Positions 2,027 to 31,969 of a stretch of DNA of 32,078 bases are shown piece by piece. Origin of the DNA: Geobacter sp. (GTDB lineage: Bacteria; Desulfobacterota; Desulfuromonadia; Geobacterales; Pseudopelobacteraceae); contig VFJM01000238.1 of assembly GCA_009886055.1 (NCBI GenBank), positions 1 through 32,078 of the forward strand. Direction: 5' to 3'. Numbering within the stretch: position 1 is the first letter of the stretch; every line of letters begins with the position of its first letter. The position numbers and the translations under genes were made by a program. The notes beneath the pieces are model-generated. The model had not been told where the DNA came from. It made no database searches and worked only from the letters and a program-made list of their open reading frames with translations.

Positions 2027-2095
2027 AAATCCCCCCTGGCCCCCCTTTAAAAAGTTGGGGATTTTAAAGCCTCCCCCTATCCAAAGGGGGGGAGG
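2027..2095. repeat. C/G-rich double palindrome at the bioD/sulP convergent junction
   Basis: Two inverted repeats lie side by side. The first pairs AAATCCCC (2027-2034) with GGGGATTT (2057-2064). The second pairs CCTCCCCC (2070-2077) with GGGGGAGG (2088-2095). The style (blocks of C, a short TTTAAAAA or CCAAA centre, blocks of G) is that of short dispersed palindromes I remember from several bacterial genomes, including Geobacter relatives. That recollection was not checked. The second palindrome lies inside the 3' end of the SulP gene. The first ends in TTTT and could serve as a weak terminator for bioD. Confidence 0.6.
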
Positions 2096-3779
2096 CTTCC
2101 CGTTCAAAATCCTCAACGATATCTGCAAGCGCCGTATGTCTGCTGACCCCACCCAATGATTCACTGATGCCGGTTGCACGCAGGATCTCACGCACCTCTG
2201 CATGCGCTTCGGCGACTCTGAACTGGATTCCTTCCCGTTCCAGTTCTTCTTCAAGCTGCTGCAGCATTCTGGCGCCGGCCGCATCGATATACGGCGATGT
2301 CGAAAGGTCGCAAACTGCCAGCCTGACGGCTGTTCTCTCACGGTGAATCGCCTCTAGCACGGTTGAATTGACGGCATCAACGTTGAAATAGAGCAGGGGC
2401 GCCTCAATCCGGAACACAAACAGCCCGGGGAATCGCTCGTTGCTGGTATGACGCTCCGCGTCGCTGAATCGTGAGCTGCCGGGTATCCTGCCGAGTACGG
2501 CAACATGCGGTTTGGCCATCATCCGGAGCAGGAAGAGGATCGAGGCAATTGCTGAAACCGTGACCCCCTTCAAAATTCCGAGCAGCAGCACTCCCGTAAA
2601 TGCGACCAGAGCAACGTTGAACTCAAGCCTGCTGATTCGCCACAAACGCTTGAAATCATCTATTTTGACAAAACTTGACACCGCCACCAGAATTATAGCG
2701 GCAAGGACGGTATCGGGAAGGTTGCGGAGCAGATCGGTCAGAAAGAAGAGCACCATTACGAGTGTGATCGACGCGAAGATCAGCGAAAGCGGTGTCCGTG
2801 CGCCTGCCTTTTCATTAACCGCCGACTGCGATAATCCCCCCGCAACCGGGTAGCCGTGTCCGAGCGCCGCGATCAGATTTGCGGCCCCCAACCCCAGAAG
2901 TTCCTGGCGGGGATCGACGGTGTAGAAGTGTTTTGCGGCAAATGTGCGTGCCGCAGCGATGCTCTCGACGTATGAGAGCAGAAAACAGGCAAAAGCCAGT
3001 TCAAGCAAACCTTCTATATGCTCGACATGAAAGGAGGGTACCCCAAGGGACGGTAATTCTGATGGAATGGGTCCCACGACGCTGACACCCAGTTCAGCCA
3101 GTCCGAAAATTGAAACGATGCCGGTTGAGAATATGACGACGGCCAATGCCACCGGTCGGCCCGGCAACAGCCTGTTTCCGGCAAACAGCAGCAGGAGTGA
3201 GCCGGCCCCGAGGGCCATAACCGTTGTATTTGCGCTCCCCAGTTGTTGAACGATGACGATCAGCCGCTCTGAAAAACTCCCCCCCCCTCCGGTTATCCCA
3301 AGCAGTATGGGAAGTTGCATGGAGGCGATGCTTAACGCCGCTCCGGCTTTGAATCCCAGCAGGATGGATTCTGAAATGAAATTGACGAATGAACTGAGGC
3401 GCATGATCCAGGCCAGAATGCAGAAAACTGCCACCATGCCGGCGGTCATGGCGGCTATGGCGGCATAACTGGAAGGGTCACCAGCCGCCATTCCTCCGAC
3501 AACGCTGGCAACCATGACTGAGATTGCAGCAGTCGGGCCGATTGACAGATGACGCGACGAGGCGAACGGCGCGTAGGCTATGCCGCTGAATATATAGCAG
3601 TAGAGCCCCGCCTGCGGGGTCAGTCCGGCCAGTGTGGAGTACGCCATCGCAACCGGCACGGCATACGCCGCAACGGTTACCCCGGCAATAACGTCCGGCC
3701 AGAGCCAGGCGATCTGATAGCGAGGCAGCCAGTCAAGAACAGGGATCAGTTGCTTCAGCCGTCGTAGCCTGCTTTTCAT
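2064..3779 (-). CDS. SulP-family anion transporter with STAS domain
   Basis: Inner-membrane transporter of the SulP/SLC26 family. Known members carry sulfate, bicarbonate or other anions, and the substrate cannot be read from sequence. Of 571 residues, about 25-410 are strongly hydrophobic with many membrane spans. They include the family signature region near 41-90 (PVAMAYSTLAGLTPQAGLY, then SSRHLSIGPTAAIS). Residues about 440-555 form a cytoplasmic STAS domain (AVCDLSTSPYIDAAGARML). The ATG at 3779 has only a weak upstream AGG. The last residues (PPLDRGRL) are encoded by a C/G-rich palindrome and may be an acquired tail. The gene is divergent from the sulfhydrylase gene at 4031, so a sulfur role is possible, but this is inference. 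A structured repeat lies just upstream in the same orientation. Confidence 0.92.
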   Translation of the reverse strand: MKSRLRRLKQLIPVLDWLPRYQIAWLWPDVIAGVTVAAYAVPVAMAYSTLAGLTPQAGLYCYIFSGIAYAPFASSRHLSIGPTAAISVMVASVVGGMAAGDPSSYAAIAAMTAGMVAVFCILAWIMRLSSFVNFISESILLGFKAGAALSIASMQLPILLGITGGGGSFSERLIVIVQQLGSANTTVMALGAGSLLLLFAGNRLLPGRPVALAVVIFSTGIVSIFGLAELGVSVVGPIPSELPSLGVPSFHVEHIEGLLELAFACFLLSYVESIAAARTFAAKHFYTVDPRQELLGLGAANLIAALGHGYPVAGGLSQSAVNEKAGARTPLSLIFASITLVMVLFFLTDLLRNLPDTVLAAIILVAVSSFVKIDDFKRLWRISRLEFNVALVAFTGVLLLGILKGVTVSAIASILFLLRMMAKPHVAVLGRIPGSSRFSDAERHTSNERFPGLFVFRIEAPLLYFNVDAVNSTVLEAIHRERTAVRLAVCDLSTSPYIDAAGARMLQQLEEELEREGIQFRVAEAHAEVREILRATGISESLGGVSRHTALADIVEDFEREASPPLDRGRL

Positions 3780-3801: not shown

Positions 3802-3876
3802 TAGTAAGTTAGAAGTTATTTTCTGCGCTTTTCCTGCAGAAAACAACTTCGTTAGCACTTATCCTGTTTATAAGGG
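3802..3876 (-). repeat. Structured intergenic repeat, copy 1
   Basis: Read on the - strand: 5' hairpin CCTTATAAACAGG, then ATAAGTGCTAACG, then a stem GAAGTTGTTTTCTGC / GCAGAAAATAACTTC separated by AGGAAAAGC, and the end TAACTTACTA. The stem pairs at 14 of 15 positions, and the remaining position is a G-U. It is the same family as the copies at 9289, 29283, 29362, 30590, 31825 and 31899. It ends 22 bases before the SulP start codon, in the sense orientation of that gene. Confidence 0.85.
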
Positions 3877-3963
3877 TTAGGGGAGTTAGTCAATGGCAGA
3901 GTGCCTCCAGGATTCAGAAGCGTGAGGCGCTGCTGTCGCTTCGTATCGCTGAAAGAAATGATC

Positions 3964-8268: not shown

Positions 8269-9291
8269 GTGAATTTTATCAGCCGGCTGTTTTCAAAGTC
8301 CCCATCCGATTTATTGGCCAAGGGCGACAAATATATGGAGTCAGAAAGTTTTTTTGAAGCCAGAACGTCCTATGAGGATGGCTTGAAGCTCTGTTCCGGC
8401 GAAGCCGGTGGAGGCGATCTGAAAATTCTTTTTTCAGAGAAAATAGATGCCGCCAATCGGAGGCTGGCCGAGCGTAATCTTCATGAAGCCGAGTCTGCAT
8501 ATTCGCGTGGGGATGCAGACAAGGCGATTGACCATCTTGAGCTTGTAAAAACACTGACTTATGATCCGGATTTACGGGAAAAGGCGGAGATATTACTTCT
8601 CAATTTTTCGCAGTCGGACAGTGCTCACGGTGAGCAGGTCAATACCTCGTCATGCGCGTCGTGCGCCGGCTCTCCCGGGGGTGAATGTGCTGACAGCTTG
8701 TTTTCGGATGATTCCCTGCCACCGCTGGAATATTATGAACTACTTATCCATCAATTGCCTGCCGATCAGTATCAGCGCTATGCTGAATTAGGAGAGGATT
8801 TTGCATATGCGTTCGTCGCTGCCAGTCGGGACGAGCATCAAGAGGCGTTGAACGGCTTTGAAAAATGTTCCGATACTCTGCCGCAAGATATCTACCGGTA
8901 TGAAAAAGGGAAAGTTCTTCACCGGCTTGGAAATGATCGTGAGGCAGAACAGCATCTTCGCACAGCAATTCAGCTGAATAGTACTAATTCGCTTGCCTGG
9001 TTTACTCTGGCACTTGTGCTGCGGGAGAGCAATCGTTTTCAGGATGCCCTGATGACAGTAGAAACAATGGTTGCAGAGAATATAATGCCCGAACAGGCTC
9101 TGTTGCTGCGTGCCGATATATGTGAGGCGACCGGGGATCATGAAAGTGCCGTGAATCAGTATGTTGAGTTGCTGCAGACACCGTATGCACGTGCTGCAGC
9201 CGAAAAACTGTATGGAATTCTTCTTGAAATCGGTCGTCCGAATGATGCCGCCGTCATTTATAAAAAATATTTGAATAAATCCTGTCATTAG
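8269..9291 (+). CDS. Tetratricopeptide-repeat protein
   Basis: A 340-residue soluble protein with helical TPR-like repeats in two blocks: residues about 12-105 (DLLAKGDKYMESESFFEART) and about 175-335 (AEQHLRTAIQLNSTNSLAWF). Between them is a linker with a cysteine cluster (CASCAGSPGGEC, near residue 129) that could bind metal. There is no signal peptide, so it is probably cytoplasmic. The GTG at 8269 follows AGAAAGGC 12 bases after the rlmD stop, so it may belong to the same transcript. The TAG stop is the first three bases of a structured repeat copy. TPR proteins are scaffolds; the partner is unknown. Confidence 0.85.
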   Translation: MNFISRLFSKSPSDLLAKGDKYMESESFFEARTSYEDGLKLCSGEAGGGDLKILFSEKIDAANRRLAERNLHEAESAYSRGDADKAIDHLELVKTLTYDPDLREKAEILLLNFSQSDSAHGEQVNTSSCASCAGSPGGECADSLFSDDSLPPLEYYELLIHQLPADQYQRYAELGEDFAYAFVAASRDEHQEALNGFEKCSDTLPQDIYRYEKGKVLHRLGNDREAEQHLRTAIQLNSTNSLAWFTLALVLRESNRFQDALMTVETMVAENIMPEQALLLRADICEATGDHESAVNQYVELLQTPYARAAAEKLYGILLEIGRPNDAAVIYKKYLNKSCH

Positions 9292-9362
9292 TAAGTCAAA
9301 ATTATTAGCTGTGTTGTTTTGCAGAGAATAATTTTGTTAACGCAGGTTCCAGTTTATCAGGG
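9289..9362 (-). repeat. Structured intergenic repeat, copy 2 (decayed)
   Basis: Read on the - strand: CCTGATAAACTGG, then a diverged AACC, then TGCGTTAAC, stem AAAATTATTCTCTG / CAGCTAATAATTTT around an A-rich loop, and the end GACTTACTA. The stem sequence differs completely from copy 1 yet still pairs at 12 of 14 positions. The copy provides the stop codon of the TPR gene and lies 57 bases before the IHF-like gene, in reverse orientation to both. Confidence 0.7.
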
Positions 9363-9419
9363 TCAAGATTGTCCATCGTTGTATTATCAGCCGGTACTTC
9401 TACGAATATGGGGGGGTCT

Positions 9420-11761: not shown

Positions 11762-11805
11762 GACGGCCCAAGAAAATGATTTCCAGCCTACCAAAGGAGA
11801 CGGTT

Positions 11806-29203: not shown

Positions 29204-29282
29204 CAAATATATTTTATAAAAATATAACACCTTGAAAGGACTTGAAAAGCTCAATATCCAGAAACATTGTTCGATATTTTAA
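29204..29282. other. Spacer between RNR promoter and repeat pair
   Basis: Part of the 438-base gene-free stretch 29075-29512. That stretch holds the RNR promoter, the NrdR boxes, repeat copies 3 and 4 and the leader of the beta-helix gene. In 29204-29282 I see only AT-rich sequence and a weak AATATC / GATATT inverted repeat (about 29255-29279). Confidence 0.4.
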
Positions 29283-29359
29283 CCCTCACAAACTGGATAA
29301 GTGCGTTAACGAATTCAATATCTAGCAAAATATCGCAAAAAATGACTTCTAACTTACTA
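29283..29359 (+). repeat. Structured intergenic repeat, copy 3
   Basis: Starts with a degenerate first hairpin (CCCTCACAAACTGG), then ATAAGTGCGTTAACG, a poorly paired stem (AATTCAATATCTAGC against GCAAAAAATGACTT), and the conserved end TTCTAACTTACTA. It forms a tandem pair with the next copy, 79 bases apart. Confidence 0.85.
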
Positions 29360-29361
29360 GT

Positions 29362-29437
29362 CCCGATAAATCGGGATAAGTGCGTTAACGAATTCATTCT
29401 CTGCAAAATAACGCAGAAAATGATTTCTAACTTACTA
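29362..29437 (+). repeat. Structured intergenic repeat, copy 4
   Basis: Hairpin CCCGATAAATCGGG, ATAAGTGCGTTAACG, stem GAATTCATTCTCTGC / GCAGAAAATGATTTC around AAAATAAC, end TAACTTACTA. The best-preserved two-hairpin version together with copy 7. It ends 76 bases before the start codon of the beta-helix gene. Confidence 0.92.
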
Positions 29438-29512
29438 ATGAGAAAACAACATTGAATTTACAGTTTGGATGAATCATGGTAATGGTTCAGTACTATTGTA
29501 AGGAGCTCACGA

Positions 29513-30589
29513 GTGAAAACTCTTTTTGCAGCCTGTCTCTTTTTCTGCATGACAGCAATCTCACTGGCGGACGAACAGGGTACAGCGGTATATGACGGGG
29601 TGGTGCTGACCGAAGATGTGACCTGGCGTGGTTCAATACTCGTCCGCGGGTTCGTTGTTGTAGCTCCTCACGCGACCTTGCGTATCGATCCGGGAACGGT
29701 GGTGCGTTTTGCGGCGTCTGCCGCTCAGCAGCTTCCGAACCTGGTTATTCAAGGTCGTCTCCAAGCAACGGGAACCTCAGAAAAACCTGTTGTGCTGACG
29801 TCTGACCGGTCCAGGCCTCAGCGCGCCTCCTGGGGGGGCATCGTCCTCCTCTCGACTGAAAAACGTAATCTGCTCGAGCACTGCCGCATTGAGTACGCTG
29901 AGACCGGAATAGATGTCCGGTTTTCCACGGTCACTCTGAAGTCGGTTTCAATTGTGCAGGCCCAGACCGCTCTGCTGTCACATGACGGGATTGTACAGAT
30001 GACCGGCAGTACTGTTTCGGATTCAGAAACCGGCATTGAGATTTATGACAGTGAATTTGAAGGGAGGGATACGACGATCTCCTCCTGTCAGCGTGGCTGT
30101 CTGTTGAGCAGGTCAGCAGTGGTACTTGCATCGTCGAAGATTATGAACAATCAGCTCACCGGACTTGAAACCGATGACTGCCGGATCAAAATTACCGGAG
30201 GAGAGTTTTCCGGAAATGTGTACGGGGCCCGCATAAAGGGTGGAGAAGGACAGATTGGCATGTCCCGCTTTCTACAAAACAAGCAGACAGCCCTGCATCT
30301 TCTCGGTTCACGTATTAAAATTCAACGCTGTCTGTTTGCCGAGAACCTTCAGGATGCGCTTCGTACTGAAGATGGTCGGGCGCTTCTTTTGAATAATGCC
30401 TTCAGCTTAAATGGTGGGTTTAATCTGTACAACGCCGGGAGTGAAGTTGTCGGTGCCCGGCAAAACTGGTGGGGTGCTGCAGATCAGTCGCTGATCAGTC
30501 AAAAGATTCATGATGCCACTCGTAATAAGGATACCGGTGCTGTCCATATCTTTCCGTGGTTGAACGAGAAGCCGCAGTTGATGCCATAA
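29513..30589 (+). CDS. Exported parallel beta-helix protein (NosD/pectate-lyase-like fold)
   Basis: A 358-residue secreted protein. The signal peptide is residues 1-19 (LFAACLFFCMTAISLA, cut before DEQ). The rest shows regular short repeats typical of a right-handed beta-helix: GTSEKPVVLTSDR, SWGGIVLLS, LEHCRIEYAETGID, GSTVSDSETGIEIYDSEF, then GGEFSGNVYGARIKGGEG. The end NNAFSLNGGFNLYNAG is followed by NWWGAADQ, a motif common in copper-binding-repeat (NosD-type) and related helix proteins. No catalytic residues are evident, so a binding or surface role is as likely as an enzyme. The start is GTG with AAGGAG upstream. The stop is followed immediately by repeat copy 5. Confidence 0.85.
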   Translation: MKTLFAACLFFCMTAISLADEQGTAVYDGVVLTEDVTWRGSILVRGFVVVAPHATLRIDPGTVVRFAASAAQQLPNLVIQGRLQATGTSEKPVVLTSDRSRPQRASWGGIVLLSTEKRNLLEHCRIEYAETGIDVRFSTVTLKSVSIVQAQTALLSHDGIVQMTGSTVSDSETGIEIYDSEFEGRDTTISSCQRGCLLSRSAVVLASSKIMNNQLTGLETDDCRIKITGGEFSGNVYGARIKGGEGQIGMSRFLQNKQTALHLLGSRIKIQRCLFAENLQDALRTEDGRALLLNNAFSLNGGFNLYNAGSEVVGARQNWWGAADQSLISQKIHDATRNKDTGAVHIFPWLNEKPQLMP

Positions 30590-30665
30590 CCCTGATAAAC
30601 AGGATATGTGCGCTAATTAAATCATTCTCTGCAAAATACCGCAGAAAATAATTTCTGACGTACTA
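30590..30665 (+). repeat. Structured intergenic repeat, copy 5
   Basis: Hairpin CCCTGATAAACAGG starts on the base after the upstream TAA stop. Then ATATGTGCGCTAATT, stem AAATCATTCTCTGC / GCAGAAAATAATTT around AAAATACC, and the end CTGACGTACTA. The next bases are AAGGA, the ribosome binding site of the following gene. The copy fills almost the whole gap. Confidence 0.9.
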
Positions 30666-30677
30666 AAGGAACATTCA

Positions 30678-31829
30678 GTGTATCTCGATAATGCTGCTAC
30701 TTCATACCCCAAGCCGGAGAAAGTGTATGAAGCCGTGATTCATGCAATGCGTGATGTAGGCGCTTCTCCCGGTCGAGGGGGATATCGCCGATCTCTGGAG
30801 GCCGGGCGCATTCTTTTTCAGGCACGTGAAGCAGCGGCCAGTTTTTTTTCGATTTCCGATTCGGCGCGGATCATCTTTACGCTTAATGCTACCGGAGCGC
30901 TTAATCTGGCTCTGCAGGGCACCCTGGTCGCCGGCGACCATGTCGTTACCACATCCATGGAACATAACTCTCTGCTCAGGCCGCTGTATGCGCTTCGAAA
31001 CAAGGGTGTCGAACTGTCGATCGTGCCGGCCGGGCCTGACGGAGTGGTCTCTGTTGAAGATATTCGCCGCGCCGTGCGGGTGAATACGCGAATGATCGCT
31101 GTCAGCCATGTTTCGAATGTCTGCGGTGCCATTCAGCCGATAAGGCAGTTGGCGGAACTCTGCCGCGAAGCCGGAGCACTATTTTTGGTTGATGCGGCTC
31201 AGTCAGCCGGGTATCTGCCGATTGACGTTGAACGTTTTGCTATCGATCTGTTGGCAGTTCCCGGCCATAAGGGGTTGCTCGGGCCGGGCGGAACGGGGCT
31301 ACTGTATGTGGCGCCTCACGTACCGCTCAAACCGGTTATTCAGGGTGGAACCGGAAGTCATTCAACTGCTGAAGAACAACCGCTCGTCATGCCGGACAGT
31401 TTTGAGGCCGGTACTCATAATCTCCCCGGAATCGCCGGATTGCAGGCCGGAATAGAGTTTTTACGTGAACGGGGACTTTCATCGGTCTTTCAGCATGAGC
31501 ATAAGCTGCTTAATCAGGCGGATCGTGCACTGAGAGATATTCCTGGGGTAACTATCTACGGCCCGGAAGATTCGTCCGCCCGTTGCTCGGTACTCTCTTT
31601 TACCGCTTCCGGTGTTGATTCGGCGCTGCTGGCTGCAGAGCTAGATCATGGTTTTGATATCGCTGTTCGGGCCGGGCTTCATTGTGCCCCCCTGGCCCAC
31701 CGTACGCTGGGAACGCTGCCGGGCGGCACGGTGCGTGTGAGCCCCGGCTGGTCCACGACAAGTGAAGAGATTGCTTTCTTTTCTGATGCCGTTGTACAAT
31801 GCATCGGGAAAATCCGAACATCAGCATGA
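30678..31829 (+). CDS. Class V aminotransferase, cysteine desulfurase type
   Basis: PLP-dependent enzyme that in known relatives takes sulfur from cysteine onto an active-site cysteine. It has 383 residues. MYLDNAATSYPKPEKV starts the fold directly at residue 1, SPGRGGYRRS is near 31, and the PLP lysine Lys198 is in VPGHKGLLGPGGTG. The likely persulfide cysteine Cys335 is in RAGLHCAPLAHRTLG, the SufS/CsdA-style arrangement. No iron-sulfur scaffold gene is adjacent, so its acceptor is unknown. The start is GTG at 30678 behind AAAGGA, between repeat copies 5 and 6. Confidence 0.9.
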   Translation: MYLDNAATSYPKPEKVYEAVIHAMRDVGASPGRGGYRRSLEAGRILFQAREAAASFFSISDSARIIFTLNATGALNLALQGTLVAGDHVVTTSMEHNSLLRPLYALRNKGVELSIVPAGPDGVVSVEDIRRAVRVNTRMIAVSHVSNVCGAIQPIRQLAELCREAGALFLVDAAQSAGYLPIDVERFAIDLLAVPGHKGLLGPGGTGLLYVAPHVPLKPVIQGGTGSHSTAEEQPLVMPDSFEAGTHNLPGIAGLQAGIEFLRERGLSSVFQHEHKLLNQADRALRDIPGVTIYGPEDSSARCSVLSFTASGVDSALLAAELDHGFDIAVRAGLHCAPLAHRTLGTLPGGTVRVSPGWSTTSEEIAFFSDAVVQCIGKIRTSA

Positions 31830-31896
31830 ATGCATGATTAAGTGCGTTAACGAAATATTTTCTGCAAAAAAACGCAGAAATATTTCCAACTTACTA
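31825..31896 (+). repeat. Structured intergenic repeat, copy 6
   Basis: The first hairpin is reduced (CATG-AATG-CATG) and overlaps the stop codon of the upstream gene. Then ATTAAGTGCGTTAACG, stem AAATATTTTCTGC / GCAGAAATATTT with one bulge, end CCAACTTACTA. Tandem with copy 7, 75 bases apart. Confidence 0.88.
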
Positions 31897-31898
31897 GC

Positions 31899-31969
31899 CC
31901 CGATAAATCGGGATAAGTGCGTTAACGAAATATTTTCTGCAAAAACGCAGAAAAATTTCTAACTTACTA
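31899..31969 (+). repeat. Structured intergenic repeat, copy 7
   Basis: Hairpin CCCGATAAATCGGG, ATAAGTGCGTTAACG, stem AAATATTTTCTGC / GCAGAAAAATTT around AAAAAC, end TAACTTACTA. AAAGGAG, the ribosome binding site of the next gene, follows directly. Confidence 0.92.

Follow-up and report, generated by a model that had tools for sequence, protein, structure and literature searches.

A ~78-bp two-hairpin repeat of Desulfobacterota that probably inserts as a non-autonomous mobile element

Introduction

Classical REPs are defined by a GTAG tag, and enterobacterial ERIC and BOX-type modular repeats are short palindromes between genes that take up internal insertions at a constant position. The repeats that we describe here, from a 32,078-nucleotide stretch of Geobacter sp. 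DNA (“the window”, i.e., the whole of that stretch), are likewise small, palindromic and intergenic with fixed-place internal insertions, but they occur in other taxa than ERIC and BOX, a comparison made by description only. With the REPs and REPINs moved by RAYTs they share intergenic hairpins that number from dozens to hundreds in a genome, a bulge or mismatch in the stem, and clustering; unlike these, they have neither a GTAG/GTGG tag nor a linked RAYT, and they combine two different hairpins per unit, direct rather than inverted tandems, and a fixed target motif. In E. coli, REP activity requires a bulge (PMC8266576). CGTC-tagged palindromic repeats (PMC3733652) are also palindromic and apparently without a dedicated transposase, but our element lacks the CGTC tag and differs in size and plan. 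Multicopy sequences of Geobacter and Pelobacter (PMC2700814, PMC2996986, PMC3543383) form intergenic palindromic families in related bacteria too, a likeness drawn from their descriptions only.

The closest parallel in anatomy is the IS200/IS605 family, whose members have no inverted ends and make no target duplication, carry imperfect subterminal hairpins, insert 3' of a fixed short motif, and end in a fixed short right-end motif (PMC6006769 and general knowledge). The element agrees in all of this, having subterminal hairpins and a motif at both the left flank and the right end. It differs in that its left hairpin starts directly at the insertion point and in being only ~78 nt long. Membership fails on the transposase: no tnpA with the element's ends was found among 34 Y1_Tnp loci.

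We conclude that the repeats are a mobile DNA element of ~78 bp that is non-autonomous and inserts site-specifically, a reading to which we give a probability of about 0.72. The family is apparently a new and unnamed one of Desulfobacterota; the searchable literature on Geobacter repeats and on the element's sequence words holds no name for it, and the supplementary tables of earlier Geobacter papers may list it unnamed. With its clear empty sites, its target motif and its apparently recent movement, such a widespread mobile repeat makes the mobiliser of a transposase-less palindromic repeat findable, and compensatory changes in repeated hairpins need not signify a regulatory RNA.

Anatomy of the element

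A sequence-only reading of the window had aligned seven copies of the repeat by eye. All seven are present where it placed them and belong to one family, aligned over 73–79 nt; a probable eighth is a remnant. Bit scores are for covariance model R1.

3802-3877, minus strand: copy 1, full, 85 bits
9289-9363, minus strand: copy 2, full, 65.5 bits
29282-29359, plus strand: copy 3, decayed full copy, first member of a tandem pair, 72 bits, fold z −1.0
29360-29437, plus strand: copy 4, full, second member of that pair, 95.9 bits, fold z −7.4
30589-30665, plus strand: copy 5, full, 80 bits
31823-31896, plus strand: copy 6, 5' hairpin altered, first member of a second tandem pair, 55.9 bits
31897-31969, plus strand: copy 7, full, second member of the second pair, 84 bits
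~11769-11793, plus strand: probable 3' remnant (eighth copy), AAGAAAATGATTTCCAGCCTACCAA, then AGGAG...ATG

The remnant is 71–83% identical to the 3' end of three copies and is missed by the covariance model. The unit of ~78 bp runs from [A/G]CCC through a small hairpin (CCCTGATAAACAGG and variants), ATAAG and a long bulged hairpin to CTTACTA, with CTAACTTACTA as its terminus; its ends are asymmetric. The second stem pairs AGTG.C.GTTA[AC]GAA... with ...TTC TAAC.T.TACT and has three fixed features, namely a G.T pair, a C/T mismatch, and an AC bulge on the left arm. Beyond the bulge lie 15 partly variable pairs and then an A-rich loop. The common plan proposed earlier (small hairpin, long bulged stem, A-rich loop) is thus seen in the copies. 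Single-strand folds beat dinucleotide shuffles in six of the seven window copies (z −2.5 to −7.4); the exception is copy 29282-29359, rightly described before as decayed, which folds no better than its shuffles.

Two familiar kinds of hairpin were considered and rejected. The outer boxes of integron attC sites read 5' RYYYAAC ... GTTRRRY 3'; in the repeat the polarity is reversed (GTTA ... TAAC) on both strands of the consensus. A terminator does not fit a stem with no T-run after it, in copies that lie between co-directional genes.

Variants of the plan occur elsewhere. At L208:3116-3254, copies in another taxon carry a small hairpin of very different sequence (CTTGCTACGCAAG) in this position, which is one more compensatory change. 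Some distant genomes have modular arrays, in which the small hairpin is doubled and the long hairpin is repeated without the small one (L204:392-515, L238:6498-6699, L282:7095-7297).

Covariation in the two hairpins

The sequence-only reading had claimed that stem changes are compensatory. We examined 129 copies in a structure-blind alignment, against a null in which substitutions were re-dealt on the tree. The four column pairs that covary most all lie inside the two predicted helices, with scores of 71–133 against 30 for the next best pair. Pair 5-13 of H1 has E<0.025 and stem pair 33-64 E ~0.025, whereas stem pairs 35-62 (E 0.2) and 34-63 (E 0.7) are not significant individually, the null being heavy-tailed. 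Covariation in both hairpins therefore exceeds the tree-based null, and the claim stands.

The further claim, that the fold itself has been maintained, needs more caution: when DNA is replicated, templated correction of a palindrome's arms would likewise change both of them jointly. With the fixed G.T pair left out, stem A.C mismatches outnumber G.U pairs 57 to 19 in copies from other genomes and ~140 to ~120 in the source genome (i.e., the genome to which the window belongs), and the complementary strand folds slightly better than the plus strand in 141 of 202 copies. Neither observation fits long selection on a plus-strand RNA.

Copy number and distribution

The exact core pattern (GTGCGTTAACGAA, 20 to 50 nucleotides, CTAACTTACTA) occurs 11 times in the 3.5-Mb source genome and not at all in a reversed control, so the repeats are not due to chance. 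A covariance model built from 14 copies finds at least 132 matches in that genome at E<=10 and at least ~99 at E<=0.001. By the model search, copies per genome range within the genus from 0 to at least ~100. The element is present in 45 of 141 genomes of the order (10 of 29 genera), and the exact core pattern is found in Syntrophaceae, Smithellaceae, Desulfobulbaceae, Desulfobacterales, and Geobacteraceae MAGs; the family is present in several classes of Desulfobacterota. Searches of plasmid, phage and viral collections gave no element match.

Insertion and decay

At copy 30589, the junction is clean: the source genome reads ATGCCATA/element/AAGGAACATTCAGTG, and the empty site in L184 reads ATGCCATA/AAAAAGGAC. 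This copy and the pair 31823-31969 are missing around the counterparts of gene 30678-31829 in the 29 congeneric loci listed, the tandem pair being missing in L166 and L173. The site of copy 3802 is empty in three congeneric loci (L308, L310, L311), with CCCTTA/AACGATGATAGGCC in L308 against CCCCTA/element/AAACGATGATAGGCC in the source genome. At two empty sites in congeneric genomes, then, insertion was clean and target duplication is absent. Two identical copies also lie at unrelated sites of one genome (L327 and L328). Besides exactly abutting tandems, copies nested in a loop are seen.

Once inserted, copies decay in place, as three loci at the site orthologous to copy 3802 show: in L314 the element is complete but unfolded (MFE −7.1 versus −22.6 kcal/mol for the window copy), and L309 and L315 have truncated remnants.

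These sites also bear on the possibility that the repeats are old passive palindromes, spread by recombination, whose arms are kept alike through templated (quasipalindrome) correction and not by selection or transposition. Such a history would explain the compensatory changes without selection on the fold and is compatible with the covariation result, but an insertion mechanism is needed to account for the clean empty sites and the strict target motif, and we hold this history to be very improbable. On mobility, the earlier suggestion of a REP-like mobile palindrome fares well, given the empty sites, identical copies, patchy copy number and target motif, but no transposase could be linked and the GTAG tag is absent.

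Target motif and placement

Insertion takes place 3' of C-C/T-T-A and before A. Among 91 copies from other genomes, the left flank has C at −4 in 62, C at −3 in 58, T at −2 in 66, and A at −1 in 66; the source genome shows a looser C-Y-R there. On the right, the element closes with TTACTA and is followed by A; this end is almost always CTA. Because the left flank varies and the right end is constant, the two are not a target duplication. This matters for a DDE-type MITE (e.g., a TA-duplicating IS630 derivative), a reading suggested by the TA often found at both the left flank and the right end: a variable CTA-like flank and a nearly invariant CTA end are not copies of one target, and GCCCTGATAAA and CTAACTTACTA do not form a terminal inverted repeat, which leaves this reading with hardly any credibility.

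The element's own end, TTACTA, resembles the target, and exact tandems are therefore expected; tandem copies abut as TTACTA/GCCC, and the window pair 29282-29359 and 29360-29437 abuts exactly at TTACTA/GTCCCG.

Taken together, the target (C-C/T-T-A/A) and the element's end (TTACTA/A) explain why copies lie at stop codons and ahead of Shine-Dalgarno sequences. CTCCTA complements a Shine-Dalgarno sequence, and C-TA/A-AGGAG is a stop codon followed by one. A Shine-Dalgarno sequence lies within 12 nt downstream of 25 of 111 and 22 of 91 copies, versus 3–6% in controls. The window offers several examples. Copy 30589-30665 lies between the stop codon of gene 29513-30589, whose last A is base 1 of the copy, and the Shine-Dalgarno sequence of gene 30678-31829. 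Copy 31897-31969 is directly followed by AAAAGGAG...ATG of the next gene, copy 3802-3877 (minus strand) lies a short way upstream of where a SulP sulfate permease gene (2064-3779, minus strand) begins, and the end of copy 9289-9363 provides the TPR gene 8269-9291 with its TAG stop codon (9289-9291), as read directly. In codirectional gene pairs the element end probably often supplies the upstream gene's stop codon, as a median distance of −4 suggests.

Four short copies (L070:245-305, L073:1001-1062, L081:1001-1062, L017:425-487) have similar flanks on both sides (..ACATA/GCCCTGAAAAACAGG...TTACTAA/AAGTGCTTCACATTACTCC..) and are apparently embedded in a larger unit that is itself repeated.

The position of several copies immediately upstream of a Shine-Dalgarno sequence, in sense orientation, together with covariation in both helices, could speak for a cis-acting RNA, one of the two options of the sequence-only reading; such an RNA would be a leader, stabiliser or riboregulator with a fold kept for the sake of gene regulation. 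Orientation is mixed, however: copies are opposite to both neighbours in 33 contexts of the source genome and 35 others, and the same as both in 23 and 18. The neighbouring genes share no function; over 141 and 147 neighbouring proteins there are 196 and 236 Pfam families, no family is shared by more than 4 of 141 and 4 of 147, and neither a regulon nor transposases are enriched. In the stem, A.C mismatches equal or exceed G.U pairs in number, with no G.U excess, the orthologous copy in L314 has lost its pairing, and congeneric genomes have empty sites. Nor do the repeats match a named Rfam family, which had been a possibility: only tRNA reached the gathering score in the window, and a relaxed threshold gave nothing meaningful. 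We consider a cis-acting RNA extremely unlikely.

Search for a mobilising enzyme

The source genome encodes five Y1_Tnp proteins. Around these and 29 Y1_Tnp genes of relatives, no complete element was found within ~1.5 kb; two of the 34 loci contain only a weak resemblance to the right end, and one Y1 gene, on contig C315, has a copy ~2.5 kb away. The repeats that flank the source genome's own Y1 genes differ from the element. Elements are present without a Y1 match in two genomes (G019, G030), and a third (G012) has at least 55 elements and one Y1, so Y1 presence does not track element presence. No autonomous version, with a gene between element halves, was found in 307 loci scanned.

These results weigh on a classical REP/BIME mobilised by a RAYT (TnpA-REP) of the source genome. 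High copy number, intergenic position, the bulged hairpin, tandems and the five Y1_Tnp proteins all agree with it, but in the consensus of 129 copies the foot of the hairpin reads TAAGTG (other strand, TTAGTAAG) and bears none of the tags GTAG, GTGG or CGTC; the source genome's Y1 genes have no element within 1.5 kb; the palindrome that flanks the Y1 gene on C144 is a different one, containing CTAC (GTAG on the complementary strand); and Y1 presence does not track element presence in the three genomes just named. We regard this origin as improbable.

Other repeat systems were seen beside Y1 genes. At L012 (G000:C144:18731-22075), a gene for a 165-aa Y1 transposase is flanked by CTAC/GTAG-type palindromes of its own (GGCTACAGGCATTCTG) and represents a REP system distinct from the element. 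Longer Y1_Tnp proteins are encoded at L014 and L015 (327 and 319 aa), where GGGGTCAGGCTTG and CCTGACCCC repeats adjoin the gene.

Possible mechanism

For the mobile element favoured here, anatomy suggests an IS200/IS605-like mechanism, with rules for guides and cleavage motifs taken from PMC6006769 and PMC8266576. The hairpins may be read as folded single-stranded DNA by a trans-acting enzyme, in the manner of IS200/IS605 and REPs, and the left-flank and right-end motifs would be the two cleavage sites. TAAG between the hairpins is complementary to CTTA and is a candidate guide; it pairs imperfectly with the target at −3, a position at which C predominates, and copies vary little in a test of guide–target covariation. 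GC skew on the element strand, a weak test of strand bias such as the lagging-strand template preference of IS200/IS605 elements, does not differ from zero (p 0.13–0.28), and the slightly better pairing of the complementary strand does not favour the plus strand as the single strand read. Placement at stop codons and before Shine-Dalgarno sequences could reflect the target motif together with the survival of insertions that spare proteins. A fuller picture, in which a phylum-wide family of single-strand hairpins is moved by a non-Y1 enzyme to a TAAG-guided target and follows a safe-site strategy (stop codon regenerated, Shine-Dalgarno sequence intact), is speculative and, taken whole, unlikely.

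Composite copies

A second form, subtype B (GTACGTTCACGAAAT...ATTTCTATCGTACTAA), sits mostly inside the loop of the first, subtype A, after TGCC[A/G] or similar and in the same orientation in every case seen. Six copies pass a strict two-sided test of nesting, and one half is seen in a further eight of subtype B. The nested composites are ~150 nt long (L022:1350-1530, L053, L074, L075, L084, L098, L106, and others). Either subtype B repeatedly inserts into the subtype A loop, or the composite moves as a unit.
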